Assembly: GCA_024195265.1 (NCBI GenBank)
Contig: JAJLRJ010000013.1
Span: forward strand, 19,533,431-19,597,430
Reading direction: 5' to 3'
DNA from: Dendrophyllia cribrosa
Lineage: Eukaryota; Cnidaria; Anthozoa; Scleractinia; Dendrophylliidae
DNA length: 64,000 bases
In this document: positions 18,724 through 59,141 of the stretch, one piece after another
Numbering within the stretch: position 1 is the first letter of the stretch
How the letters are laid out: the number at the start of each line of letters is the position of its first letter
The notes under the pieces: generated by a model
The model's input: only the letters and a program-made list of their open reading frames with translations
Told to the model about the DNA's origin: nothing
Database searches by the model: none
Translations under genes and position numbers: made by a program

Positions 18724-19367
18724 GTAAGTGAAGTAATGAGTAAAACTATATAACCTTGATCTAAGGGGATTCTCCTTCTAATGAGCTAAAAGCGATGACA
18801 CTTAAAATATTAGGTTCTGGATTTAATATCAAACCGATCACAATTTTTTTCTTCGCTCCTGGACGCCTTTTAGATGCCTTCCATTTTTGCTAGTTTCAAG
18901 TTTCAGATGTTTTCACAAAAGCCTATGAAGAAACTTGCAGATGAACTCTGTGAACCATGTCACGGCCTGTGTTGACGGAAAGCCGTTCTAGAGAAGTCTT
19001 AACGCTTTACATTTGACAAGGCTTTTCATGAATATTAAAGAAATATCAAAAAGGATTATTGTGTAATCCTCTTATTAGCAAAGACGGAGCATTTCATTTC
19101 AATGCACCGAGTGAAGCTAAAAACATACCTCGGTTGCTGACGCCTTTGATGGGCTTTCGCGGCATTTAATAAAGGCATGTTTTCACCAGCCCGATTTATT
19201 GTACATCATCCGTGTGACGCTGCTCACAAGGCGCGAAACAAAGCTGCTGTTAACTAAAAAACAGTGACATGCTAGCTCATATCAGGCAATAACCGTTGAT
19301 TTCTACCCTTCTTTTATCCCAGTGAACAGTTGGAAGTTTTGAAGCTTGTCACTAAGTTGTCTGGATC

Positions 19368-19952
19368 ATGAGCGCACCGAATGCGGTGAGGAAACGTTCT
19401 GTGACTCTGAACTCCCTGGAGCCTTTCTTGAGGAAGCAGAAGAGAGATCGCCTTCGCACAACGAGCATCAACTCCATCGCTTCTGGAATCGCGAGCTTTC
19501 CGGAACGCCAGCGTTCAATGACATGGCATGGCGTCGAAGACGAACTCGCGGGTCTTAGCTTAAGCTGCTCGCCTAAATTCACTCTACCGGTGAATGCATC
19601 TCACGACATCGCTGATTTGAAAGATTTTCACGATGATTTGGAATCGCAAGAGGTTATCAAGCACATCATAACAGAAGAGCTGGATAAATCTTTGCTTGAA
19701 AGTGATTACGATAGCGAAAGATGTGTGGCTCAGTGTGCAAATATCAGCCAAGCGGTGGAATCGAGAGTCAAGGAAATTACTTCTCAGGAGACAAAAGTAC
19801 TGGCCGTGGTATACATCGGCGAGATACGGGACCAGGGACTTGAGATCACCAGTCAATGCTTATGGGACCCAGAGACGGACAACTTCGTAACTGCAAGTTT
19901 CAGAAGCAAAACTTTGTTTGCAGTGTGTACTGTGTTTACGGTGCACTATTGA
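19368..19952 (+). CDS. Tctex1-domain (DYNLT-type) dynein light chain family protein, gene 1
   Basis: This encodes 194 residues. Tctex1 proteins are small dimeric light chains that link cytoplasmic or axonemal dynein to cargo or act in cilia. The C-terminal half (about residues 80-194) carries the family pattern: helix with YDSERCVAQCANI, strand VLAVVYIGEI, then SQCLWDPETDNFVTASF and the closing LFAVCTVFTVHY. The N-terminal 75 residues are basic and serine-rich (KRSVTLNSL, RTTSINSI) and specific to this group. The ATG at 19368 follows a spliced leader (acceptor 19322), which supports the start. The coding part is intronless. It is the first of four such genes here and, with the gene at 28618, forms a same-strand pair. 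The exact subfamily (TCTEX1D/DYNLT) cannot be fixed by eye. Confidence 0.85.
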   Translation: MSAPNAVRKRSVTLNSLEPFLRKQKRDRLRTTSINSIASGIASFPERQRSMTWHGVEDELAGLSLSCSPKFTLPVNASHDIADLKDFHDDLESQEVIKHIITEELDKSLLESDYDSERCVAQCANISQAVESRVKEITSQETKVLAVVYIGEIRDQGLEITSQCLWDPETDNFVTASFRSKTLFAVCTVFTVHY

Positions 19953-24219: not shown

Positions 24220-24715
24220 CAGAAAAGTGTCCGCAACTTGAGCTGGTCGCTTACGGGAATATGTAAAGTACAGAGTTGGTATGAGCTAGAGTTCAAACGG
24301 GGTTTTGTAAAGGTGGCCGTAAGTAGAGCTGTCCGCTTACGGGAATGTGTGAAGTACAGAGTTTGTATGAGCGAGAGTTCAAACAAGGTTTTGTGAAGGT
24401 GGCCGTAAGTAGAGCTGGCCGCTTACGGGAATGTGTGAAGTACAGAGTTTGTATGAGCTAGAGTTTAAACGGAGTTTTGTGAAGGTGGCCGTAAGTAGAG
24501 CTGGCCGCTTACGGGAATGTGTGAAATACAGAGTTTGTATGAGCTAGAGTTTAAACGGAGTTTTGTGAAGGTGGCCGTAAGTAGAGCTGTCCGCTTACGG
24601 GAATGTGTGAAGTACAGAGTTTGTATGAGCTAGAGTTCAAACGGAGTTTCGTGAAGGTGGCCGTGCGCGTCATTAGAGTTGTCCGCTAACGAGAGTGTCC
24701 GCTCAGAGAGCTTCT
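24220..24715. repeat. 86-bp minisatellite
   Basis: Five-plus head-to-tail copies with a constant 86-bp period (GGCCGCTTAC or GTCCGCTTAC at 24331, 24417, 24503 and 24589). Each unit contains GGTGGCCGTAAGTAGAGCTG and CAGAGTTTGTATGAGC. There are no spacers, so this is not a CRISPR array. Confidence 0.9.
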
Positions 24716-27524: not shown

Positions 27525-28617
27525 GCTTCAATAAACCCTATTTAGCTGGGCTTGTTTGGAGTTTCTGAGCCTTCGATTTATGATATTTCACGTCCAAAAC
27601 TCTTTCCTTTGTGGTCCGCAAAATTACTTCATTTAGATAGTTCTGACAGCCGCCATCTGAAATGTACCTGAGATCCGCCATCTTGGATTTCTGGATTTCT
27701 CCAAAACCTCAGAAAACCGTTCAAATTGACTTAAAAGTAAACAAAACCATTAATGTAACACCTGAGTAACGCTAAAAAGGCGTAAAAATGTAAAAGTTAC
27801 GACAACAAACTTATTTTTTCAGTAAAAAAGTCCAAATTTCGAAAAACAGCGCTGTCAAAATCTTGTTGTCATAGAAACAAAAGGTCACGTAAACTAACAA
27901 ACTGTCATTCCAAATTATTGCCAGATAAATTTTAAGAAAAGTCACGAAACTTTGGTGGCCTTTTCTTAAATATTAAAAAAGTGCTGAACGTTGAAAGTCA
28001 TCGCTAAATAGGGTTAAGTATTGATACTGATCTATAGGTCTGGAAACCCAGATCCGACCATTTTCAACGGTTTGTTGCAATGATCGTGCATTCTATTTGT
28101 TGTTTATCCGGCATCCGGCCGCAAAATCGACGTAAGGGTTCTCATTGGCTATAAAATAAAGTTTATTCAAATGTTATGCACATTTCGTTTGCGTGGAAAT
28201 ATATTTTCGATTGTTTATAGTGTGGTGGGTGGCTGTTGTCAGTGGGTTACAGTCTTAATAATCTTGTCATTAACATCCCTTATTAGCTACCCGGCAAAAG
28301 TGACACTTTATTTACACCCTAATCCCTACTTATTTTAATGTCTCATTTGTCACACGAAACCCATTGGAGCGGGTGATAAGTAATTGCTATATAACAGGCA
28401 ATACGGAAAACGTTGCTATTGTTACCGACAAAAGGTTGTATAACAAACGGAAATCAGCTCGGGATCACGTTTTACTGACGTGCTGGAAGTTAACATTCGA
28501 GTGGTTGGTCATTAAAAGGAACGTGAGAAGACTCACAGTCTTATCGACCTCTACCTGATCACTAAAGTAAGGAAGGTTTAGAATTGGAGCTGAGTTGTAC
28601 AACTTTTGTTCGGTTTG
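27525..28617. other. Upstream region of the second Tctex1 gene
   Basis: No gene was seen. A TATAAAAT (28150-28157) with an ATTGG/CCAAT box just upstream could be a promoter about 460 bp before the ATG at 28618. Confidence 0.35.
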
Positions 28618-29202
28618 ATGAAAGCGAATATAGCGATGCCAGCAAGTGAAGCATCAAGCCGTAGAAGTTCAATGGCCGTGACCGATGTACAGACTGCCAA
28701 AGCAGCAGTGAATCTACTCGATCCTGCCGCCACACAAAGCACAAATTCAGGTAATGTGCCCAAACGGCGAAAATCCGTGAGTTTGTACCCAAGGGCTTAT
28801 CAAGCCGGCGGGCAAAGCGATATCCCGCATCCCATGGCGCCGAAAATGGCCAATACTTACAAACTAGGACCGGATGAGGACAGACGGTTTCGATGCAAAG
28901 ATGTGAAGGATGTTATCGACAATGTATTGGAAAGCCGGCTCCAAGGTCTTCCTTACAATGCTGAAAAATGCAAGTTTTTACTACCGAGCATCGCTGACGA
29001 AATCAAGGATAAGGTGAAGTTGTTGGGATTTGACAGATTTAAACTTGTGTGTTTGGTGACGATAGGTAAATTGAACAACCAAGGAGTACGGGTAGCCAGT
29101 CGATGCCTCTGGGACACGGCTACTGACCGAATGGCTACATCTTCCTTCTGTGGTGAAGATCTATTTGCCTCGGCAGCCGTGTTTGGAGTTTATCGAGAAT
29201 AA
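28618..29202 (+). CDS. Tctex1-domain (DYNLT-type) protein, gene 2
   Basis: This encodes 194 residues from the ATG at 28618; an upstream in-frame TTG extension at 28606 is not a credible start in an animal gene. The Tctex1 core is at about residues 95-194: helix with PYNAEKCKFLLPSIADEI, strand FKLVCLVTIGKL, SRCLWDTATDRMATSSF, and the closing LFASAAVFGVYRE. The N-terminal part is serine- and arginine-rich (SSRRSSMAV, PKRRKSVSL), like gene 1 but poorly alignable, and ends before a degenerate linker. The coding region is intronless. It is on the same strand as gene 1, about 9 kb away. The role in dynein or ciliary transport is by family only. Confidence 0.83.
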   Translation: MKANIAMPASEASSRRSSMAVTDVQTAKAAVNLLDPAATQSTNSGNVPKRRKSVSLYPRAYQAGGQSDIPHPMAPKMANTYKLGPDEDRRFRCKDVKDVIDNVLESRLQGLPYNAEKCKFLLPSIADEIKDKVKLLGFDRFKLVCLVTIGKLNNQGVRVASRCLWDTATDRMATSSFCGEDLFASAAVFGVYRE

Positions 29203-32460: not shown

Positions 32461-32754
32461 GTACCCACACCACCACCATCTGCAAGTTTCGAGAAGATGG
32501 CGTGGCACTGGCCGACGCCATCTTGTTTGAGCAAGCCCGTGAACGGCCTCTGAAAGTTAACCGCTGACCAGCTAGGTCCAGACTTCTTTCGAGTCAGTTC
32601 AGATGCATTCAGTTCATACTTCAGTTACAGAAATCCTTTTCTCAAACACAAAAGGAAATCATCACAATGCTTATGAATTCTAAAATTTAACATTTAAAAT
32701 CTTTTGAGTGCTGAAATCTAGATCAAAGTTATGCAAAATGCTAAATAATGCTAA

Positions 32755-33590
32755 AAAAAGCAAGTGATACACTCGAAAGCCTACCCCGTGGCCTGGCCAG
32801 TACCTTATGCATGCGCACAGCCATATCACCCTGGCAGTGGCAGCCATGGACAGCTGTTTCGTCCTAGTTAGGACTCATCAGCATGGCATAGCCAGGCAGA
32901 GTCTCACACAAAATCATCGACTCCGCCACTTTACTGCCAAGGCGGATACAAGCATCCCTTTAAGGGCCAGCTACAGACGACACATGTGGTAGCTGTTGGC
33001 TGGGGACAGCACGGCCGTCCTCCCACGGCATGCGTATGGAGAGGTGGATCAGCATTTTCGCCGATCGGTGCGTCAGTAAATTTAAGTAAAAATACGTAAA
33101 AAGCAAGTGACACACTCGAACACCTACCCCGCGGCCTGGCCAGTACCTTATGCATGCGCACAGCCATATCACCCGAGCCGTGGCAGCCATGAACAGCTGT
33201 TTCGTCCTAGTTAGGGGTCATCACCATGGCATAGCCAGGCAGGGTCTCACACAAGATCATCGACCCCGCCACTTTACTGCCAAGGCGGATGCAAGCATCC
33301 CTTTAAGGGCCAGCTCCACACGACACATGTGGTAGCTGTTGGCTGGGGACAGCACGGCCGTCCTCCTACGGCATGCGTATGGAGAGGTGGATCAGCATTT
33401 TTGCCGATCGGTGTGTCAGTAAATTTTAAGTAAAAATACAAAAAAGCCTGGCTATGCCATGCTGATGAGTCCTAACTAGAAGGAAACAGCTAGGAAACAG
33501 CTGTCCATGGCTGCCACTGCCCGGGTGATGTGGCCGCGGGGTATGTGTTCGAGTGTGTCAGTTGCTTTTTTCGTATTTTTCGTATTGCTT
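32755..33590. repeat. Tandem 343-bp repeat plus inverted third partial copy
   Basis: Two direct copies (about 32755-33097 and 33098-33440) share CTGGCCAGTACCTTATGCAT and AGCTGTTTCGTCCTAGTTAG. A third partial copy lies inverted at 33446-33570 (GCCTGGCTATGCCATGCTGA). A poly(T) run of about 20 follows. The frames in both copies are repeat artefacts. Confidence 0.85.
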
Positions 33591-37320: not shown

Positions 37321-38816
37321 AAATAACAAACCCTACATTCTCTGATCATTCAGCAGTTATTCTCGCCCTACAATCGGAAGAATATGCTAAACGTGGTCCA
37401 GGATTCTGGAAATTAAACAATTCCTTGTTAAAAGACGAAAATTTTATATCTGAACTTCCGGACAAAATTCCTGATTTCAAAGCAAAGCATAGCTATCTAG
37501 ATGACAAAGGTCTTTACTGGGATATGATCAAGATGGAAGTAAGAGGTTTTTGTGTTCAATATTCAAAGCGAATGAATAAAAAACGAAGAAATAGGGAAAA
37601 AGATTTACAAAAACAAATCGACCGTTTAATGAACGAGTTAAAAAATAATAGATCCAAGCAAAATATTTCACAGCTCTATTGCCTCCAATCAGAACTGAAT
37701 AAGATTATTGAATACAAAACAAAAGGCGCTATTATCAGGAGTAGGACACGCTGGCACGAGGAAGGTGAAAAAAACACCAAGTATTTTTAAACTTAGAAAA
37801 ACGGCAATACTTTAAAACACATATCACAAAACTCAAATGTAATGGCAGAGGAGAAATTACCGATCCCGATGAAATATTGAATGCACAGAAATCATTTTAT
37901 TCCACATTATATACTGCTCCCCCCTGTAGTGCAACGGAAGATACATTTCAAGAATTCTTTGGAGACACCAATTTGCCAAAACTCGATCAAATTGAACAAG
38001 ATAAGTTAGAAGGTCTTCTCCTCAAAGAGGAATGTTATACTGTTTTGAAACAATGTGCGAAAGGGAAGTGTCCAGGAAGCGATGGCCTCTCTGTCGAATT
38101 TTATTTACAATTTTGGCATCTCATAAGCGAAGAGATGGTCGAAAGTTTTAATTACGCCCTTCTGCGAGGCCAAATGAATATAACTCAGAGGCAAGGAATC
38201 ATTAAAGTTATACCGAAAAAGAAAAAAGATAAGTTCTATCTTGAGAATTGGAGACCCCTTTCCTTGCTAAATGTGGATAACAAGATTGCTACTAAAACTA
38301 TTGCTCACAGAATTGCTACGACTCTGCCTAAATTAATTAACGAGGACCAGACAGGTTACGTTAAGGGACGGTATATTGGACAAAATGTCAGACTTATTCT
38401 CGACCTTATGAAAGTTACAGAGATTGAAAATATACCAGGTATAGCTTTATTCATTGATTTTAAAAAAGCATTCGATACGGTAAATTGGAATTACTTATCA
38501 AGGACTTTACAAATGTTTAATTTTGGGCCTCTGATTCAAAGTTGGATAAAGGCCTTTTATAACAACTGTTCAAGTTGTGTAATGAACAACGGATATGCGT
38601 CAGAATTTTTCGAATTAGAGCGAGGCGTTCGACAAGGATGCCCGCTTTCCGGTGCGCTCTTTGTTCTGTGCGCAGAAATACTAGGCAACGCTATCAGACA
38701 AGATACGAGTATTCGTGGAATACAGATTTTTGATAAAGAATTTAAAGTGTCTCAATATGCAGATGATACTACCGTACGGAAGCTTTTAAGGGACATCTGT
38801 AAACATCTCAAAATCT

Positions 38817-39274
38817 GAGTTCGAGTTCGAGTTGCAGTTCGAGTTCGAGTTCGAGTTCGAGTTCGGGTTCGAGTTCGAGTTTGAGTGGCAGTTCGAGTTC
38901 GAGTTCGAGTTCGAGTTCGAGTTCGAGTTCGAGTTGCAGTTCGAGTTCGAGTTGCAGTTCGAGTTTGAGTTTGAGTTCGAGTTCGAGTTGGAGTTGGAGT
39001 TTGAGTTGCAGTTCGAGTTCGAGTTTGAGTTGCAGTTCGAGTTCGAGTTTGGGTTGCAGTTCGAGTTCGAGTTCGAGTTCGAGTTCGAGTTCGAGTTCGA
39101 GTTCGAGTTCGAGTTCGAGTTCGAGTTCGAGTTGCAGTGCGAGTTCGAGTTCGAGTTCGAGTTCGAGTTTGAGTTTGAGTTCGAGTTTGAGTTCGAGTTT
39201 GAGATCGAGTTTGAGTTGCAGTTCGAGTTCGAGTTCGAGTTTGAGTTGCAGTTCGAGTTCGAGTTGCAGTTCGA
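38817..39274 (+). repeat. Left terminal GAGTTC hexamer array
   Basis: About 76 hexamer units, mostly GAGTTC with interspersed GAGTTT, GAGTTG and CAGTTC variants. It forms the inner part of the left terminal inverted repeat. It gives rise to long serine-only or Phe-Glu frames that are artefacts. Confidence 0.95.
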
Positions 39275-39466
39275 ATGCCACGTGCCCGCTCAATGTACGT
39301 GTGTTCAAGATGTGTTGTGAAGTCTTTGGTTTATTCCTTTTGATTGCTCATTGTATCAGGGTTGCCAAGGGTGTTTTGCCTCCCTATGTTCCGGGTTTGC
39401 AGGTTAATTTTGAACCTACATCGCGTATCCTTTTACATTTTTAAGTATTCCTGGTCGTTTTATTAA

Positions 39467-39660
39467 GGGCGCGTTCGTTTGGGATCAATCCGGTATAAGA
39501 AAAGTTGGAATAATGCAAGTAAACGTTCGTTTGGGAGCTATTCTCATTCCGGAATACTTGGATTCCATTTCCGCTATTCTGCTCCCAAGAGCAGAATAGC
39601 GGGAACATATTCTAAGAATATATTCCAATTCCGGATTGATCCCAAACGAACGCGCGCCCT
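39467..39660. mobile_element. GGGCGCGTTCGTTTGGGATC MITE
   Basis: Inverted ends GGGCGCGTTCGTTTGGGATC and GATCCCAAACGAACGCGCGCCC, with a central GAGCAGAATAGCGG/CCGCTATTCTGCTC pair. It is nested in the transposon between the left array and the transposase gene. Confidence 0.85.
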
Positions 39661-40051
39661 CAATGTTATTATGCTGGAGCCCATAACGTAAATATCTTGT
39701 TTCGACTTGTCTGCAGATTAATATTTTATATTATTGTGTTTCTAAACCGTTAGCATTGGTTTTATTGGTAGAAAATATAAGATGTTTAAGTTAAGAGTTT
39801 TTATATTCTGAACATGACTAAAAAGTTACGAAGGGGAGGAGCGTTGCGTGACGGACCCAATTAACGGCTGCGTAGGAGACTACGAAACATATTTAATGTT
39901 ACACGATGTGTTTGTGTGAATTGAAATATTACGTTCGCTAACTTATCCAGGCTTTAAACTTCCAAAAATCCTGCGATAGGCTTAAGTTTGGCTGAACTTA
40001 GTTTTATTTAAAGCGTTCCGTAATTTTCCTGAACGACCTGAACGTTATCAG

Positions 40052-43000
40052 GAAATGATCTAATTGAAGATTACTTCAGCCTTGGTTACACATACCCAGA
40101 GATAGTGGCGTTTCTGTGCCTTGTTCACGGAATAGTTATCAGGTTAGTGTTTTCATCATTCACTTTGACAGCAACAACGTTTTTTAAACCTTTTTTTGCC
40201 GGAAAGTTTTATTTTTATTTCTTTTGTTTGTCCAGCCTTCGCCAAGTCAAGCGAATTATTAGGCTGAAGGGGTTACGGAGAAGACGACAACCAAGTGACA
40301 TCAGGGACGTGGTTGCTGCAGTAGAAGTGAGCAGAGATTTGTTCAATGGTTTATACGTATGTATTGTGGCAGTGACATGGCAGTCACAACGATTGAGGAT
40401 TTCATTCTGTTTCATTGCTTGTCCTCCACAGAAAGAACTAGCTGGTAGTGGTAGCTGTGTTGGCTATAGACAAATGCATCAGAGATTGAGGGATGATCAC
40501 AGACTTGTTGTAAACAGGTACCAAGACACGGTCAAAGCTTATCATAACTAAAAACTTACACGTATCTCTCCCTTCTTCCTGTGATCTAGACATAGGGTTG
40601 TTCAGACCGATTTCCCAGGGCCATTCCATTTAATATCCACACCTCCCCCCTATAGATGAGGCAAGTCAAAATTTACCCCATACGAATCAAAATATCATAG
40701 TGCAGACATGATACCCCCCCCCCCCCCCCCCCCACAGAAATAATACAATTTTTCTTTACCCTTCAGAAATATTCAAAAGACTAAAGATGCCGACACACCT
40801 ACCCCCCTAAGAAATGACTTTTGAGAAACCCTCGGAAAATGTCATCCATAGGGGGAAAGGGGCCAGCAGATATTAAATGGAATGGCCCCCAAAATCATGC
40901 AAGTTCGTATATTTAGTAGTACGAAACTGCTTAGACTGAAATTTTTCCCGAAAAGAAGATGTGAAAGTTGATGTTTGTATCTTACAATTTGCGAAGAAAC
41001 GCGAAAATCCAGTTCTTAATTTTGCTTTTTTGCGTTGCTGACGTAACAAAACTCGAAAAACCAACATTTTAAGTCTGAGCTCGAGGAACTTTTCTCAGTT
41101 TAGCTCGCGTTATGAACATATCATAGTTCTGAATTGATATCAGCCACCCTTCAGTGTACTGACGCCAAATCCATCAAGAAAGCCAAACTCTCACAAGCTC
41201 TCTGGTTTCTTTTAGGCTTCGTATCTCGCGGGTCCTCGCGACTCTAGTTTGTTTCGATTTATTGCTATTATATTTTATATATTAGATATTCTGCTTTTCT
41301 TTTTTCAGTGTATAATGTTGTTGTTGTGAATAAGTATACTCATTTAGATTCAATAAACATATTTGAATCTCACCAGGGAAACCACAAGAATTGTGTTAGG
41401 GGTTCTAGACCCTGAGGGAATATCTGATAGAAGGAAGGGAAGATTACAAAGGAGAAGATACCGATGTAAGGTAAGATAAAATGTAACTTCTACACACAGC
41501 AGGATCTCGAAAGTAAAACATGACACGTGACAAGAAATTTAATTAGCATATGCAATCAACCCCACCATTAACTATTAATATATATTCTTATGGTCTTCTT
41601 GATCTTTCATTGAAAACCAGTCGTAGACATGTCAAGTAAACAAAAACTCCGCGGGCAATGGATTTGCTGAATGCTTTATAAAAAGGGATTTATTTACTGC
41701 GACTTCTTTGGACTTAAAATGGCCTGTTTTAACACAGATAGTAGGGAGCGAAGAAAAGATGGCGCAATTGCGAGTAAAAAATGCGAGGGCTGACTCATTC
41801 TTCATTCACTCACCGCTTTATCGCTGCTCTCCACAACCTAAAAAGACCTCCCGCAAGACTCCTTACGTACTCCTTGATTAACGCAAAATATCATCTGTTT
41901 TACTCATCAGGGGCCCAATTATATCTGGCACATCGATGGTTATGATAAATTAAAACCTTACGGATTTTGTATTCATGGTGCTATTGATGGGTAAGTGTTT
42001 CAAAATATAGAGTTTTTAATCCTATAGCTATTGTGTTTGCTGATAATCAGGGATTATGCGAGGGCTGACTACTGCGAGTGCTTTTAAAACCCTAGCCTCT
42101 TTTGCAGGCAACTCCGGAGTCTGGGGCAAAAGGACGGGCAATGGACGGGGTGAAGTGGGAAGGAGTTGGCAACTTCTGTTTATCTCTGTGTACACCCCCT
42201 TCTTACTCGGTCAGGTTTTTGTCCTCATTGTTCCGCGGAGGAGGCTAGCTTAACCCCAAATACAATTTTATTCAGAGATACTTCTTTCATTTCTTTTTAT
42301 ATCTCGCTTTTTTGTGACAGATACTCTCGTCGTATATTGTGGTTGGATGTTACTTCCACAAACAACGATCCAACTATCATTGCGCAGTACTATGTTGACT
42401 GTGTAAATCAACTTGGTGGTATGTTTTCCCTGTATATATGATTATATTATGTCATAAAATTAATACAAATTCATCATAATTGAAGACAAAAACCTTGTCT
42501 TCATTTGTGATGAATATCTATATTATATATAAATTCTACAGGGTTCCCTATATAGTACTGATATGATATATGCATTTTTGGTTTTCAGGTGCTCCGCGCA
42601 TTGTGAGGGCGGACTGCGGAACAGAGAATGTCATTGTTGCTGGCCTACAAAGGTTTTTCCGTTCTGAGGCTACTGATGACTTTTCAGGCGATAAAAGTTT
42701 CCTTTACGGAAAGTCCACAACTAATCAGGTGGGAAATTTAACCGCTTTCATTGCGTGACTTGTCCAGCAAACAGTCTTGTGTTTGGGTCATTTAATGTTT
42801 TCCTTTACCCTTTTCATTATAGAGAATAGAAGCCTGGTGGTCATTGCTGAGAAAATCTAATGCAAACTGGTGGATAAATTACTTTAAGGTTCGTGTTTCA
42901 CGATTTTCAAACGTTCACACCTCGCCTTCCCGAATATACAAAGAAAATCAACAAATTAACTAATAATTAAATTAATAAACATTACAATTTAAGCCTGGTG

Positions 43001-43117
43001 CAGTTTCGTATTTTGTCCTTTCGTACAAAAAGTCTCCAATCCTGAAGTGTTGATTGTCGTCCCTAGGATTTACGCGATGCTGGCGTTTTCGTGGACGATG
43101 ACCCTGTTCAACAGTGA
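40052..43117 (+). CDS. IS3-type DDE transposase/integrase, nine recognisable exons
   Basis: Exons: 40052-40142, 40236-40326, 40432-40517, 41377-41470, 41911-41990, 42321-42418, 42589-42728, 42823-42888, 43067-43117. All junctions are GT-AG with matching phases, giving about 264 codons. The N-terminal helix-turn-helix part has DYFSLGYTYPEIVAFL and LKGLRRRRQPSDI, followed by an IS3 OrfB-like second HTH (VGYRQMHQRLRDDH). The integrase core has the catalytic triad: Asp in WHIDGYDKL, Asp in VRADCGTEN, Glu in NQRIEAWW (41 residues between the last two). The frame ends at TGA 43115-43117. Relatives normally continue with a further conserved block (FCFxxLIQxELD-like, then WNxHRIR), which I do not find. 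The starting Met and first exon, between 39275 and 40051, are unresolved. It is convergent with the SAM gene, with 82 bp between the stops. Confidence 0.82.
40711..40735. repeat. Poly(C) tract in intron 3 of the transposase gene
   Basis: About 22 C residues, within the 859-bp intron between 40517 and 41377. Confidence 0.9.
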
Positions 43118-43199
43118 GTGTATTATATGTTACTTTCACGTAGAAATACGAGTTGAATTTGCTTTAAAGGAATATTTTCGAAAAAACTCCTACCAAACA

Positions 43200-46100
43200 T
43201 TAGTTAAAGTTGGTGCTTTTCAATAGAAACGTAATACCGCTACAGACTTCGACCGGTTCTTTGCACAGCGAGCCAACCCAATCATAAATGCCTTGAATAC
43301 TTCCTTCAGGATCGAACACTCTATTTACTACACCCAAAGTAGTATGACGTACAGAGATCTTTACTCGGGGATCGTTTATGTTTGGTTCCGGGGGAGAACG
43401 TTGCTCGCGGACCTGACGAAGTATTTCAAGTGAATCTGTTTTGTCACAGGTCAATTCAGACACCGACTTACTTTCGTCTCCGGCTCTACTCTTTTCTTTA
43501 GCTTTATCAGCATCAAGGGAGGCCCTCAGTTCCTGTTCAATGTTCTCAAAATATTGCAGACGCTCAAGAGATGTTCCAATGAGCCCATCATTCTTTGGAC
43601 GAGAAGAACTTGAGGTACCAAATAATGACGCTTGATCACCGAATGCTGGTGGCAACGAATCTACATCATCGTTCTGGGAATCATCATCCTCATGTGTCGT
43701 CAACAAGTACAGGCGTGGAATTGTCAAGCTTGTGAACTGTTTGTACCTCTCGGCAGAAAACTCAAATGGCTTGCCATTTTCTTCCATTAAAATAATGAAG
43801 TCACCGCTGAAGTTGCCCATTGCAGTAATCATTTTCCCCAATTCACCAACTGGACTCATCCTATTCGGGAAAAAAAGATTTTCTGCAATATCTTGACACT
43901 CTTGAAGGGATGCTTGGCGAGGTACGTGGAATGTACGAGTACCGCCACCGACATTCTTTTTCTGCTGGACAAAACCACGCCCAGGCTTCCAATGCTTCCA
44001 GCCGAACTCAAATTTAAGAGTGGCTGTTTTTGCCGATTTTGCTGTTGAGTTACCAGCTTTACCAGGCGTTTGAGCTTGACGTTTCCTTCCTCTGCCTTGC
44101 CCAAGGATTTGTTTTATTTTGGCTATCTTTTCTTCCCGGTCTGAAGAGATGCTTGTTTTGCAAAATGACTTCAGCTTAATTCTGTCTCCCTTTGCAACTA
44201 AACCAAGTTCTATTAGGTCGTCTTCGTCCATTACATTGACGGCATCTTTATCAATCTGAAAGTTCGATCAACAGCACAAGAATAAGACGCACAATATAAT
44301 GACCAATATGAGGTGGATTGAATGCTCTACCTCTTGTTACTGAGGCTAGGTTTTCGAGAAGCACAGCTAAGAAATTACTCGGGTGAAATTGTCTTGCGAG
44401 GAGACCCTTTTTGGATATACAGCAACTCAACTTCCCCTAAGGGACTGGTCAAAACGTATAGGGAGGAGAGGGGTGGGCCAGAGCGTTTGAAAATATGGTA
44501 GATCAAAAACACACAACCCACCCCATATACCCATATACTTTTTGACCAGTCCCTAAACATGTTTTACTAAAAATTATCAGAAAAAGCAAAGACAAGGACG
44601 TTTCAAACGGTGGGAAGGCTGCAGTTGCAAATTTTGTAGAAAAACCCAGTATCTAACTAAACTGTTTTACAATGGTATGTAATGTGTAATTTTTTTTCAC
44701 ATCCATGGTTAATTAAAAAATCAATAAAGCCTCCTTAAAGACTATCACAAATACCGGTATTTGTTTCTTGTTATTTTAAAAATGAAATTTGATATTGTTT
44801 TTTTCGTTTTGATGTTGGGCACTCTTGGAAGTGAAACAGTTAAGAATGATTCTACTGTAGATGAATTGGGCAGTGATTCTGGTGTGCAAACTCCAAAGAA
44901 CAACAAGATCAATGAATACAGAATATAGTCAAGTTAACAGGATAAATTTGTGTTATCAGGCTGAGAACAAAGGACATATTTGCCAGCTTTCCAATAGGAA
45001 ACAGTTTGAAATTGATAAAAAAAAGATTCACATGAGCCACACAAGATGTGAAATTTTAATAACAGTCTCAATGTGCTCATTAGAACTAGCTATATACTGC
45101 TGAGGTTGTTACTTTTGTAAAAAATAACAAGTAAAAAAGCTGACTGCCTACAATCAATTGAGCAATCAGTTAATTGACATGGATATAGAAAACTCTGAGA
45201 ACTAATAAAGATCAATTAATGTTTACCATATTTTTCCTTTTTACCTTTTTTACCTTTACTGCGCCTTTCAATAACATGCGGAATTTGAAATTCAAATCTC
45301 GACAACGGTTGCGTTATTCTCTGCCGTCAATCATAATTAATATGAAAGCCAACGGACCATGTAAAAAAGAAACAAACAAAATGGATCGAAATCTACCAAT
45401 CATAGTGAAGATCTGTTTCCTGAGATGTAAGCTAAGATGATTGACGGCAGTGTAAAACGCAACCGTTGCTGGTGATTTGAATTTCAGATTCCACGTGTTA
45501 TTGAAAAGCGCAATAACTATGTAAAGGTTGGCAGAGAGAGGGATATAGAAAGGAAGTCTGAGACTGAATAAAGTTTCTCTCACAGCTTCCAAAGCAGTCT
45601 ACCATATTTATTCTAATAAATGCCCTGTGCCTAATAGAGACCTTTATCTTCCTTTTGTTTTGGTTTTTTTGTATGCTAATATATGTTATCAGGCATGATA
45701 ATGTTATCGATTTGATGATGAAAATTACGGGTAGAATCATATTTAAGACAACTTAACGTTTCGGTGTTAATTAATTTAAAACAAAGGAAGATAAAAATTG
45801 AACCAGGTGACCCAAAATGGGTACTACCACAGTGGTCAGCATAAAAACAAGAGAAGAAGTTTTAAAGTTTTATTAAATCTAAAATAAAGTAAAATTAAAC
45901 TGGTTAAACCTCATGCAATTACTACTGTAACTCAATTGGTATTGTTAATTTCATGGCTAATAAATTTCTGGATCAAACTACGGTTATGTATTTTTGCACT
46001 GGAGAGGAGAAATTTGTTCACATTTGACTTCATTGTTGTAACTACTTCTTTAGGTACAAATAACAACACACACTTCTATAAGGCTTTTTAATAAAAAACT

Positions 46101-46577
46101 ATTCCGAAATGTATGAAAAATGCTACTTAATTAAGTTAACAAGCTTACAATTATTGTACATGTAGGTATTAAACTAATGTTGACGTCTAGAATCGAAGGT
46201 AGAGAAAGGTTTAACTGTGGTCAAACAACGGTCACAAGTACAATTTTTGCTATTTGTTACATGAACTTAAGTGAAACCATTATTTTAGTGTCCTTATCGT
46301 AATCGAAGATTCCTTAAAGACTTAAGCTATGCTCACCTTTTCATGTTGAAACTTTTGCAGTATGGCCTTCTCGACTCCAATAGCTTTCAAAAAGCTTGAC
46401 ACTTTTTCAACCTAAAAAATCATTGTGAGGTGGTCAAAGTAAAAAAAGGAAGTTCCCCTATCTACAAATTGCAATATTTGCTCATAAGATGAAATCAGGA
46501 GAAGTAAACAGTGAGAAAATGGCTCTTACCTCGTTTGACTCGCTAGCGCTGGTTTCCGCCATTTTGGTGATAACCAT
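43200..46577 (-). CDS. SAM-domain protein with ubiquitin-like tail, three exons (transposon cargo)
   Basis: Exon 1 is 46577-46530 (ATG, MVITKMAETSASESNE), exon 2 46411-46337, exon 3 44255-43200. All introns are phase 0 with GT-AG ends; the total is 392 residues with no internal stop. Residues about 17-75 form a complete SAM domain split over exons 2 and 3 (VEKVSSFLKAIGVEK, then MDEDDLIELGLVAKGDRIKL). Residues 100-200 hold a GGGTRTF...LFFPNRMSPVGELGKM block, which accompanies HECT-type G2E3-like ubiquitin ligases in fish and cnidarians. Residues about 335-385 look like a UBX/ubiquitin-like fold (VKISVRHTTLG, IYDWVGSLCKEPVE). The HECT catalytic domain itself is absent. The ATG lies only 34 bp from the right hexamer array, so the array or TIR probably holds or abuts the promoter. 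Confidence 0.8.
44440..44554. mobile_element. GGGACTGGTCAAAA MITE in intron 2 of the SAM gene
   Basis: Inverted ends GGGACTGGTCAAAACGTATA and TATACTTTTTGACCAGTCCC, flanked by TAA on both sides. Non-coding. Confidence 0.8.
45261..45511. mobile_element. GCGCCTTTCAATAACA MITE in intron 2 of the SAM gene
   Basis: Ends GCGCCTTTCAATAACATG and CGTGTTATTGAAAAGCGC pair, as do inner CAACGGTTGCGTT and AACGCAACCGTTG. The inner CCGTCAATCAT pair extends the fold. Confidence 0.75.
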
Positions 46578-46610
46578 GGGACCGCGATACTTTTGCACTA
46601 AAAACCGCGG

Positions 46611-47030
46611 GAACTCAAACTCGAACTCGAACTCGAACTCGAACTCGAACTGCAACTCAAACTCAAACTCGAACTCGAACTCGAACTCGAACTCGAACTC
46701 GAACTCGAACTGCAACTCAAACTCAAACTCGAACTCAAACTCGAACTGCAACTCAAACTCGAACTCGAACTCGAACTCGAACTGCAACTCGAACTCGAAC
46801 TCGAACTCGAACTGCAACTCAAACTCAAACTCGAACTCGAACTGCAACTCAAACTCGAACTCGAACAGCAACTCAAACTCGAACTCGAACAGCAACTCAA
46901 ACTCGAACTCGAACTCGAACTCGAACTCGAACTCGAACTCGAACTCGAACTCGAACTCGAACTCGAACTGCAACTCAAACTCAAACTCGAACTCGAACTC
47001 AAACTCGAACTGCAACTCGAACTCGAACTC
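46611..47030 (-). repeat. Right terminal GAGTTC hexamer array (GAACTC on the + strand)
   Basis: About 70 units with the same variant types as the left array, in inverted orientation. The outermost hexamers match the left array exactly, then the variant order diverges, showing independent shuffling since the ends were last identical. Confidence 0.95.
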
Positions 47031-48923
47031 AGATTTTGAGATGTTTACAGATGTCCCTTAAAAGCTTCCGTACTACCGCCTTTGTGGCAGACTTGCAATC
47101 TGCGGAAAACTTGTTTAAATTATTGCATAATTTTCAGAAATGTTCTGGCCTCGAAGTGAACCTTAGTAAAACTGAAGGAATGTGGTTAGGCGCTAATCAA
47201 TCAAACGAGACAAAACATTTTGGAATTGCATGGCCTTCTGAACCCGTTTTTGCGCTTGGGATCCATTTTTCGAATAATGATACTGTTTCCTTTCAGAAAA
47301 ACTTTGATCAAAGGCTTACGTCAATGCAAACCCTATTAAATTTATGGTATCCAAGGAATCTAACGTTATACGGCCGCATAACCATTTTGAAAAGTCTTGC
47401 ACTGTCCAAACTGGTCTACAATACGTCTATGCTTTCACTTCCTATAGTATTTATCAACAGAGTAAATCAAGTTATCAAAAATTTTCTCTGTGGAAAAAAA
47501 GTCAAAATAAAGCATAAAACTATGATAGGGCCTAAAGAAAGAGGAGGACTCGACATGCCTGATTTTAAAATCATCAATAATTCTCTCAAAGTAATGTGGA
47601 TCAAACGGTTAAATGATAGCACTGCAGACGCTAGCTGGTGTCATATTCCTATGGAATACCTATAAAATCTGTAGGCGGTCGTTTTTTATTTGGGTGCAAC
47701 TTCGACTTAAAATATCTCCCAATTGATTTACCACTATTATTCTATAAGGAAACTCTAGAATCTTGGCAAAAAATCAACTGTACTAATCCTGAAACGAAAG
47801 AGCAAATCCTAGATGAAATAATATGGAACAACAGGTTCATTAGAATTGAAAGTTGCTCTGTCTATTATAGGCAGTGGCATGAGGCAGGCATTACTAAAAT
47901 TAATCATATCTTCCAAGATGGCTCTTTCTTAACTTTTTATGATTTTTCTTCTAAGTTTCCTATAAAGACGAACTTCTTAAGATATCATGGCCTGTGCCAT
48001 GCAATTCCTAAAAAATGGATTAAAAAATTAAAGGCGCAAAACGTACATGCGCCAGTGGTTTTACAAGCAAACGATCATAGCGGAATGTCAATAGATAAAA
48101 TTTCTTGCAAGTCAGCTGGCCAAATGTATGTGAAGATGGAATTCGAAACACCTACAGCTGAAAAAAGAATGAAAAATGCTGGCCTTAACGAAGAAACAAT
48201 ACATCATATCTACAGTATCGCTTTTAAAGTGACAAAAGATACTAGACTTGCTATTTTCCAATTTAAAATCATCCATCACAGTCTGCCTACAAACGCTACA
48301 TTATTCAGGGATTTAATTATTTTAAGCGAACAATGTCATCTTTGCACCGAGAAACAAACTCTAAAACATCTTTTTGTAACTTGTTCCCACGTGATGTCCT
48401 TTTGGACACGTTTCACCGATTGGTGGAATGAAAAAAATCAAGAAGTGTTGACTCTTTCGGAGACAAATATCATTTACGGTATCACTAATAATCTCCCTCT
48501 TCGTCTTGGTTTAAACCTCTGCATAATTTTAGCCAAATATTATATTTACAACGCTTCAAGGAGAGAAGAAGAATATATCTGGGAAGCTTTTTTCGCCTTT
48601 ATGAAAAATCATCTGGATATGGAAAAACATAAATGTAAATTGGAAGTTAAATTTTGAGCTTTTTTATGTATTTTTTTTTTGTTGTTGTTAGTGTTTGTGA
48701 CATGTCCTTTTTGGTTTATTTTAGCTCGTTTAGCTTGTACTATGTTGTCATACATTTAAAAACTATTTTTGTAAGTTAATACTAATCCCTAGTTAGTATC
48801 GTAGTCTTTTGTATCGTAAAAATCGAACATATTGTAAATAGTGTAAGTAGTTGTGGAGTCGTAAGTATTGTTGATTTCAATAAAAAAAAAATTAAAAAAA
48901 AAAAAAAAAGTTAAGCAAGATCT

Positions 48924-52763: not shown

Positions 52764-53390
52764 TTACTCTGGGATAGGAGAGTGAATAAAGTCTTTGATT
52801 GCTTTGATGTACTTCTCCCTCTCTGACTTGCTCTCCGCGTAAATGCCGTACACCGTAGCAACGGCAATAAGTTCATCGCTCTTGTAAATATACTCTGCAA
52901 AACCGTCTTTGTCCACCCCGATCGCTCCCTCGTCCCAAGCGCAGCCACTCTGCATGGAGGGAGGGGGTTTCAGCCTCTTCGTGACATAACACGTACAAAC
53001 GAACTTATACTTCTTCATTTCCAGCGCGGAAACTTTATCGCGTAGCGTGTTTACAAGTTGCTTCGTGAGCGCAGAACATTCACTTGCGTCATATCTCTTT
53101 CCTTTGAGTTTAGTCTCCAACACTTCTTGGACCATCTTGCTTACGTTGTCTTTAATAAACCCACTCGGGATCTTCACTTTTTCTGGATCAACAGGAAGCG
53201 ATCGAGAGCGGCTTCGCAGCGGATAATCGGCATGTGTCATAACAGCGATCCCGCGATCCTCATCTCGTGCCTTGGGCCGCTCTTTGGCATCGAATAATGA
53301 GGTCTTTCTGTATCTTGATGCAGTGTTCTTTGCGAGAGTTATTCCCTCGAGTTCATGAATCGCTTTCTTCATAGAAATTTCTGAATCCAT
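52764..53390 (-). CDS. Tctex1-domain (DYNLT-type) protein, gene 3
   Basis: This encodes 208 residues from the ATG at 53388-53390; an 11-residue upstream extension begins with GTG and is not credible. The Tctex1 core is at about residues 85-190: helix RYDASECSALTKQL, strand FVCTCYVTKRLKPPP, SGCAWDEGAIGVDKDGF, and the closing LIAVATVYGIYAE. The N-terminus holds a block shared only with gene 4: SLFD, MTHADYP and RSRSLP. A WDEGAIGVDKDGF loop longer than in genes 1 and 2 places genes 3 and 4 in a separate subgroup. A TATA-like TATTTAAA lies upstream at 53507-53514. Family role: dynein light chain or adaptor; not specific. Confidence 0.85.
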   Translation of the reverse strand: MDSEISMKKAIHELEGITLAKNTASRYRKTSLFDAKERPKARDEDRGIAVMTHADYPLRSRSRSLPVDPEKVKIPSGFIKDNVSKMVQEVLETKLKGKRYDASECSALTKQLVNTLRDKVSALEMKKYKFVCTCYVTKRLKPPPSMQSGCAWDEGAIGVDKDGFAEYIYKSDELIAVATVYGIYAESKSEREKYIKAIKDFIHSPIPE

Positions 53391-53506
53391 TTCAAAAGTT
53401 TCGCGCGGTGAACAGACCTGCACCCGCCTCCTTCACGCCTTCTTTCAGACTGACTGTTCAACTCGTTCGCTTTGCGCTGATTTAGCTCGAGTCCTACTAG
53501 TTACTG

Positions 53507-58281: not shown

Positions 58282-58989
58282 CTAAAGCATGTTGAAGAAA
58301 ACGCCACCCTCCTTTCGCTTTCGCGCTGGCTCAGATATTGAAGCGCTTCTTGCCTTAGGCAGCGATAAACTTCTTGGAACTTCTAAGGGGTCAATTCCCG
58401 TTTTCTTTGAACCAAAACTCTGGCACTGTATTACAAACACGGAGGCAACTGCTACAATGTCCTGGTTCTTGTACACATAATCCACAAAAGCATCCTTGTC
58501 CACGGTGCTTTTGAGGTCGTCCCAGGCACAACCACTGTCGATCGCAAGCGAGGGCTTGACGCGTTTTGTAATGTAGCACAAACAGATAACCTTGCAACCT
58601 GACAGCTCAAACGTGCTACAGATCTTCTCTTTCGCCATTTTTGCGATCTTGTTTGAAGAAGTAGAGCATTCTTTGGCATCGTACGTCTTGAACGACAACT
58701 CCATGTTCATTGTTTGTTCAAGGATTCTGTACGTCGCTTGTTTATCGAACACTTGTTTTCTCTCGCGGCCCAACGCAGACAGTGATTTCGTGCGGATTTT
58801 AGGAATGTCTGCGTGTGTCAGAAACGCGTTTCCGACGTCGCTTTCGGATCGTTGCGGATCGAAGAGGGAGTGTCTGCGTCTACGTGCCCAGAGTTTAGCA
58901 CCGACGACTCCTCTCAATGACAATTGAGATTCTTCGTTCGATTCGGTGACTGGTACCAACGCTGCTGGACTCAAATTCGACTGATCCAT
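58282..58989 (-). CDS. Tctex1-domain (DYNLT-type) protein, gene 4
   Basis: This encodes 235 residues from the ATG at 58987-58989 (the upstream TTG extension is not credible). The Tctex1 core is at about residues 80-195: helix TYDAKECSTSSNKIAKM, strand KVICLCYITKRVKP, SGCAWDDLKSTVDKDAF, and the closing IVAVASVFVIQCQ. The N-terminus shares SLFDPQR, LTHADIP and TKSLSALG with gene 3. Unlike the others it has a C-terminal tail of about 40 residues, rich in Ser, Arg and Lys (RSLSLPKARSASISEPARKR), which could be phosphorylated. It is single-exon, tandem with gene 3 on the same strand, about 4.9 kb away. Confidence 0.85.
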   Translation of the reverse strand: MDQSNLSPAALVPVTESNEESQLSLRGVVGAKLWARRRRHSLFDPQRSESDVGNAFLTHADIPKIRTKSLSALGRERKQVFDKQATYRILEQTMNMELSFKTYDAKECSTSSNKIAKMAKEKICSTFELSGCKVICLCYITKRVKPSLAIDSGCAWDDLKSTVDKDAFVDYVYKNQDIVAVASVFVIQCQSFGSKKTGIDPLEVPRSLSLPKARSASISEPARKRKEGGVFFNML

Positions 58990-59141
58990 GAAAACGTCCA
59001 AGAACTTATTACGAGTGAGTTGATCAGATCATATGTCAGCTCATTCCGCGGAAGACAGTTAGGGTCAGTTTCTTTCGCAACTCTTCCAAAGGCACCCTTC
59101 TTTTTGACGCTGAGAGAACTGTGTATCTTTTTGGCAATTCC

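Follow-up and report, generated by a model that had tools for sequence, protein, structure and literature searches.

An IS3EU-like DNA transposon with hexamer arrays in its terminal inverted repeats in Dendrophyllia cribrosa

The element, its target site and its copies

In this study, we analysed a stretch of 64,000 nucleotides from Dendrophyllia cribrosa (contig JAJLRJ010000013.1; hereafter the window, C5:19533431-19597430), in which a transposon interrupts a long interspersed nuclear element (LINE). The transposon occupies positions 38775..47072 of the forward strand (8,298 bp), has the termini TACGG..CCGTA and carries terminal inverted repeats (TIRs) that continue inward as long arrays of a 6-bp motif. 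It houses a transposase gene on the forward strand and, converging on it from the opposite strand, a cargo gene with a SAM domain. The genome searched for further copies amounts to 627 Mb in 22 contigs.

The original prediction had the element start at 38774, flanked by a target-site duplication (TSD) ACTACC. This sequence is truly duplicated, as the 7-mer ACTACCG is present at both borders, but the real start lies one base inward, at 38775, and the TSD is CTACCG (38769..38774 on the left, 47073..47078 on the right). We settled on CTACCG because it leaves the symmetrical border TACGG..CCGTA, which is fixed by a second copy at the C18 locus; the borders of that copy read GGAATT/TACGG...CCGTA/GGAATT, and they also back a TSD length of 6 bp. 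The alternative of a TSD ACTACC with the ends GTACGG..CCGT was rejected as being asymmetrical and contradicted by the C18 copy.

The host LINE extends over 37769..48657 on the forward strand. When its flanks are joined with a single TSD, one open reverse transcriptase frame runs through ...YADDTTAFVADLQSAENL... / YADDTTAFVADL, and in the portion shown the other two frames are broken by several stops. RVT_1 is matched by the left flank (E 3.3e-28) and zf-RVT by a frame in the right flank (E 1.8e-7). Therefore, the element is inserted in the YADD motif of the LINE reverse transcriptase, and its removal restores the reading frame, as had been predicted.

Searching the genome with the 87-bp terminus, we found at least five tips at at least three loci, with both ends at C5 (the window copy) and C18 and one end at C17. 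The C18 locus has the same tips as the window copy; its arrays hold about 60 and 39 units, and the TSD that flanks it is a separate one of 6 bp, GGAATT. The C17 copy is truncated: it retains one tip, starting with TACTG, and about 24 units, its homology ends at a poly-C tract, and no second tip was found in the 14.9 kb downstream of the first. The interior beside the left array is matched at these same three loci. This interior query gave 61 matches; apart from those at the three loci, they lie on segments that are repeated in the genome, mainly query positions 183-376 and 444-542; with the best 40 of 925 candidates scored, a further copy could be missed. The cargo region is matched at C5, at C18 and at one additional C5 fragment, at which no tip was found. 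Within the scope of these searches, the family is low-copy. The window and C18 copies, compared outside the arrays, are 99.2% identical over 2.0 kb and 97.9% identical over 1.1 kb, which suggests fairly recent activity of the family.

Termini and hexamer arrays

Each end of the window copy begins with a unique tip of 45 bp (38775..38819, forward strand, and 47028..47072, reverse strand). The left tip shows no mismatch to the right tip or to both C18 tips, and a single mismatch to the C17 tip. The tips are followed by arrays of AGTTNN units, the left one (38817..39274, forward strand) with about 76 units and the right one (46611..47030, reverse strand) with about 69-70. Both were delimited with Tandem Repeats Finder (TRF), which gave a period of 6 with 76.3 copies (score 629) for the left array and 70.0 copies (score 581) for the right one, and by an in-phase parse, which gave 76 and 69 units. 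These values agree well with the earlier description of 420-460 bp arrays of a 6-bp motif inward of each end. The ends had also been described as perfectly inverted for about 70 bp; indeed, the left and right TIRs are identical over 71 bp, through the 45-bp tip and into the arrays, and position 72 is the first to differ. The two TIRs of the C18 copy are identical over 46 bp. The sequence GAGTTCGAGTTC has no occurrence in the window outside the element. A single-strand fold of the left TIR gave a z of -2.45, which is uninformative for a simple repeat.

Since the C18 locus shares its two tips and its arrays, and the C17 locus one tip and one array, with the window copy, and C18 has its own TSD, the arrays belong to the family. 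The worry attached to the original prediction, that no other copy might have the same termini or that the borders of other copies might fall elsewhere, is answered by the C18 locus with its tips, both arrays and separate duplication. Short-period arrays are hard to assemble, and it could be argued that the arrays are an artefact or a collapse of the assembly at simple repeats. We consider this extremely improbable and rejected it: the units are imperfect (84-85% matches, TRF), their order differs in the five arrays at three loci, and matching TSDs are present at two of these loci.

Altogether, the arrays are inherited with the family, with lengths that vary from copy to copy and from one end to the other within a copy, and their AGTT core is near constant. 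In-phase parsing yielded 76 and 69 units in the window copy, 60 and 39 in the C18 copy and 24 at the single end of the C17 copy. Across these 268 units, the four AGTT positions show 13 changes and the two N positions 166; the first count is somewhat low because the parse leaves out units with more than one core change (two shifts). The NN dinucleotide is mostly CG, TG or GC, with few GG. In the four arrays of C5 and C18 (244 units), C>T occurs 54 times at N1 and G>A not once at N2; among the 24 units of the C17 array, the counts are 5 and 2, respectively. The units are tandem copies and non-independent, and for this reason we attach no probability to the N1 and N2 counts. The order of the units also carries landmarks. 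GAGATC followed by a similar string of units is found near the inner end of the left arrays of C5 and C18, and GAGTGG-CAGTGC is common to the left arrays of C18 and C17. This shared order suggests that the arrays of the different copies may descend from a common array.

The same observations bear on the main rival to a role of the arrays in transposition, which is neutral slippage. According to this explanation, the hexamer was gained by chance, or came from a pre-existing GAGTTC satellite, and was then expanded by slippage and by gene conversion between the inverted ends. The widely differing lengths (about 76, 69, 60, 39 and 24 units) are what such a process could leave, as are the indels and shifts that we observed in the left array of C18, and the first 43 bp of the tip contain no AGTT. 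However, arrays adjoin all five of the tips found, the variation is mostly confined to the two N positions (with the non-independence already noted), and the excess of C>T at N1 over G>A at N2 in C5 and C18 is unlike the symmetrical decay of CpG, although the C17 array is less one-sided. On balance, we regard a purely neutral origin as rather unlikely.

Transposase, cargo gene and nested repeats

The transposase gene spans 40042..43113 on the forward strand and was reconstructed by GT-AG splicing and profile searches. Nine exons (40042-40142, 40236-40326, 40432-40517, 41377-41470, 41911-41990, 42321-42418, 42589-42728, 42823-42888 and 43067-43113) splice into one open frame of 267 aa. The spliced protein matches Pfam rva_4 with an E of 1.5e-25 (90.5 bits, cutoff 26) over profile positions 2-133 of 194. 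The prediction of an IS3-type DDE transposase with introns is upheld by this gene structure and by rva_4, with the IS3 model itself below cutoff (NCBIfam IS3, E 2.3e-7; IS481, E 1.9e-5, likewise below cutoff). The two Pfam models that the original prediction had singled out, rve and HTH_21, do match the spliced transposase, but both stay below their cutoffs (25.1 bits for a cutoff of 32.6, and 23.8 bits for a cutoff of 28.1). A putative acidic triad, D133, D192 and E233, was placed by motif. No HHCC zinc pattern was found in the 267 aa recovered, whose N-terminus is incomplete, and no start exon was identified in the window copy. At the other end, the C-terminal part seems to be missing, because the open frame stops at the splice donor that follows DPVQ and the rva_4 match covers 2-133 of the 194 profile positions. 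Relatives continue further. In the C18 copy, the transposase gave no match (tblastn, E up to 1).

The cargo gene lies on the reverse strand. Its first exon, with the ATG, is at 46530..46562, about 48 bp inward of the right array; the second (46337..46411) encodes the first half of the SAM domain and the third (43254..44255) the remaining SAM domain onward. Splicing of the three exons raises the SAM match from 14.1 bits, below the cutoff of 20.5, to 28.0 bits (E 2.6e-6). The prediction of a SAM-domain cargo gene was therefore correct as far as it went, but the gene comprises more than SAM. The third exon is homologous to the C18 copy down to 43254, beyond which the two copies differ, and in the C18 copy the cargo (L009 4754-3543) extends to a HECT match of 24.8 bits (cutoff 23.9). 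The stretch before HECT contains an in-frame stop, and the frame changes there (unless an intron has escaped recognition); judging from its sequence, the C18 cargo is a broken gene. A UBX-like stretch stays below the Pfam cutoff and the HECT-like piece has no match among PDB sequences. No HECT part was found in the window copy, and region 2161-3540 of L009 has no BLAST match in the window. From these remnants, the original gene set of the family was probably a transposase with a SAM-HECT gene converging on it; the copies found each keep parts of it only. Hence the first description of the element as complete holds for its two ends, whereas its convergent genes both seem to lack their C-terminal parts.

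The cargo ATG stands about 48 bp away from the right array, and this array could also have a promoter role. It could be proposed that the arrays are promoters, enhancers or insulators of the two convergent genes and have no part in transposition. The first transposase exon found begins 768 bp inward of the left array, and the CpG observed/expected ratio is 1.35-2.37 across the five arrays, both of which would suit such regulatory elements. The position of the arrays inside the TIRs fits a role in transposition equally well, however, and the two roles are compatible; a purely regulatory function appears quite improbable. A promoter and terminator scan, which covers the bacterial consensus only, was uninformative.

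Two further repeats are nested in the element, both resembling miniature inverted-repeat transposable elements (MITEs). The first, of about 190 bp with inverted ends (39463..39655), corresponds to positions 183-376 of the interior query; at least 10 further loci match all or part of it at 87-90%, and it is also present in the C17 copy. The second (45257..45515) has inverted ends of 43 bp that are 88% complementary, and is absent from the C18 copy and from L016.

Elsewhere in the window, four open frames match Tctex-1 (dynein light chain), at 19356-19952 and 28594-29202 on the forward strand and at 52764-53432 and 58282-59028 on the reverse strand (E 4.6e-14 to 9.2e-28), possibly a local cluster of genes with long single exons. 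The window also contains a tandem repeat of an 86-bp unit at 24240-24664 (4.9 copies, 94%) and a 343-bp unit present twice in tandem at 32754-33447 (93%).

Class assignment and foldback-type ends

The termini, the 6-bp TSD, the rva_4 core and the opposite cargo gene support the assignment of the element to the IS3EU class, a known group that has received little study and that belongs to the IS3EU/GingerRoot superfamily of Repbase. Complete IS3EU families are described as always having TA..TA termini and usually a 6-bp TSD (PMC10045372). Both two-ended loci conform, with TACGG..CCGTA ends and the duplications CTACCG at C5 and GGAATT at C18, and the C17 tip starts with TACTG. The TET-carrying IS3EU elements of rust fungi have TIRs longer than 30 bp, TAYGG..CCRTA ends and a 6-bp TSD, and TET-carrying IS3EU families have a kinase gene opposite to the transposase (PMC12730594); the related fungal element Styx has a TIR of 36 bp (PMC10853768). 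The Dendrophyllia element shares with IS3EU a TIR longer than 30 bp, a DDE integrase-like core without HHCC (rva_4 above cutoff, the triad being placed by motif) and, as in the TET-carrying fungal families, a second gene opposite to the transposase. It differs by TIRs that run on as 420-460 bp hexamer arrays, and by a cargo of SAM and HECT in place of the alpha-kinase or TET/JBP of the fungal elements. The literature covered makes no mention of repeat arrays in IS3EU TIRs.

Three related groups were considered and rejected. The DDE core and the NCBIfam matches (below cutoff) recall bacterial IS3 and IS481, but the introns and the long TIR set our element apart from them; bacterial IS3 has a TSD of 3-5 bp and TG..CA ends (PMC10045372), unlike the 6-bp TSD and TA..TA termini found here. 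IS481EU has TNT..AYA termini and a TSD of about 4, 15 or 25 bp (PMC10045372), in contrast to TAC..GTA termini and 6-bp TSDs. Ginger1 has an HHCC zinc domain and a 4-bp TSD (PMC10045372); the element has a 6-bp TSD and no HHCC in the portion of the transposase recovered, incomplete at its N-terminus.

The original prediction held that no described element has this terminal design. This is too strong, because internally repetitive TIRs are known in Tm1, Galileo and Mcmar, that is, in foldback-type transposons of several superfamilies (PMC3169594, PMC3573991, PMC3688188, PMC4079207). The TIRs of Tm1 (Phantom/MULE) consist mostly of tandem units of about 14 bp (13-15 bp), whose number differs between ends, and the TIRs of Mcmar (Tc1/mariner), 355 bp long, are built of direct repeats and palindromes (PMC3169594). 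For the F copies of Galileo (PMC3573991) and for Tetris (PMC4079207), the reported repeats in the TIRs measure about 210-220 bp. In Galileo (P superfamily), binding sites of the THAP domain lie about 70 bp from the end and also in the tandem repeats of the TIR, which the authors suggest give binding specificity (PMC3688188), and multiple binding sites have been called a convergent trait of different superfamilies (PMC3573991). The Dendrophyllia ends are of this foldback type: they share with Tm1, Galileo, Mcmar and Tetris long TIRs holding tandem repeats (about 76/69, 60/39 and 24 units here) and, with Tm1 and Galileo, unit numbers that vary between the ends of one element and between copies. 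They differ in that the other elements have transposases of other superfamilies (Tetris being unclassified) and units that range from about 14 bp in Tm1 to about 210-220 bp in Galileo F and Tetris, compared with 6 bp here; moreover, the Galileo repeats carry THAP-domain sites, whereas the AGTTNN arrays are candidate sites by analogy. This end design thus appears to be known in other transposon classes and seemingly undescribed in IS3EU. The literature searched gave no relevant description of hexanucleotide repeats in TIRs, nor of IS3EU with HECT; the words IS3EU and foldback co-occur only in a table and a reference entry of one paper, with no description of the combination. A SAM-HECT cargo beside an integrase-like transposase was not found either. 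All these negatives are weak evidence of absence, given that few subscription journals were covered.

We favour, as reasonably probable, the reading of an IS3EU-class cut-and-paste family with convergently evolved foldback-type TIRs, whose arrays would be multiplied recognition sites. It draws on the C5 and C18 loci, each of which has two tips, two arrays and a 6-bp TSD of its own, and on C17 with one tip and an array. Judging from the family, a DDE enzyme would cleave the 45-bp tip in a cut-and-paste reaction. The AGTTNN array could act as a multiplied secondary recognition or enhancer site, bound by the helix-turn-helix region of the transposase or by a partner protein; the HTH_21-like stretch (below cutoff) is a candidate binder. 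The multimerised transposase-binding sites of the original prediction are thereby kept as the best candidate mechanism. Such an array may raise the specificity of the ends and their synapsis, as proposed for Galileo, and would grow and shrink by slippage and unequal exchange. The right array, which abuts the cargo start codon, may additionally act in the cargo promoter. The window copy would have moved into the LINE carrying the transposase catalytic core and the SAM half of the SAM-HECT gene; an internal deletion seems to have removed the C-terminal parts of both genes, and the copy is now probably non-autonomous.

Several points weigh against this reading. The HTH_21, rve, IS3 and IS481 models all match below their curated cutoffs, and the transposase has no match among PDB chains. 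The hexamer does not evidently derive from the terminal sequence by multiplication, since the outermost 43 bp of the tip lack AGTT; in this it departs from the origin proposed for Tetris (PMC4079207). The loci are few, two of them with both ends; the tandem units being non-independent, the conservation of the core may partly reflect amplification, and slippage alone would likewise yield arrays of variable length. Finally, the C18 cargo includes a 271-aa middle piece for which Pfam gave no match, and its HECT match spans only profile positions 210-293 of 306.

A bolder proposal, which we hold to be doubtful, is that this would be the first foldback-type IS3EU: an integrase-like transposase would have exchanged a short TIR for a long array of 6-bp recognition units with a restricted dinucleotide "code" (mostly CG, TG, GC), its ends being recognised by cooperative, polymer-like binding along about 400 bp, and the SAM-HECT ligase cargo would possibly modify host transposon control.

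If the favoured reading is true, IS3EU joins a set of unrelated transposons with foldback-type ends, which would strengthen the view of repeat-multiplied ends as a convergent solution. The 6-bp unit is the shortest among the foldback examples compared here for which the unit length is given in the literature covered. With a near-fixed AGTT and a restricted dinucleotide, the idea of multiplied binding sites is directly testable in this family with one protein domain and one short oligonucleotide.

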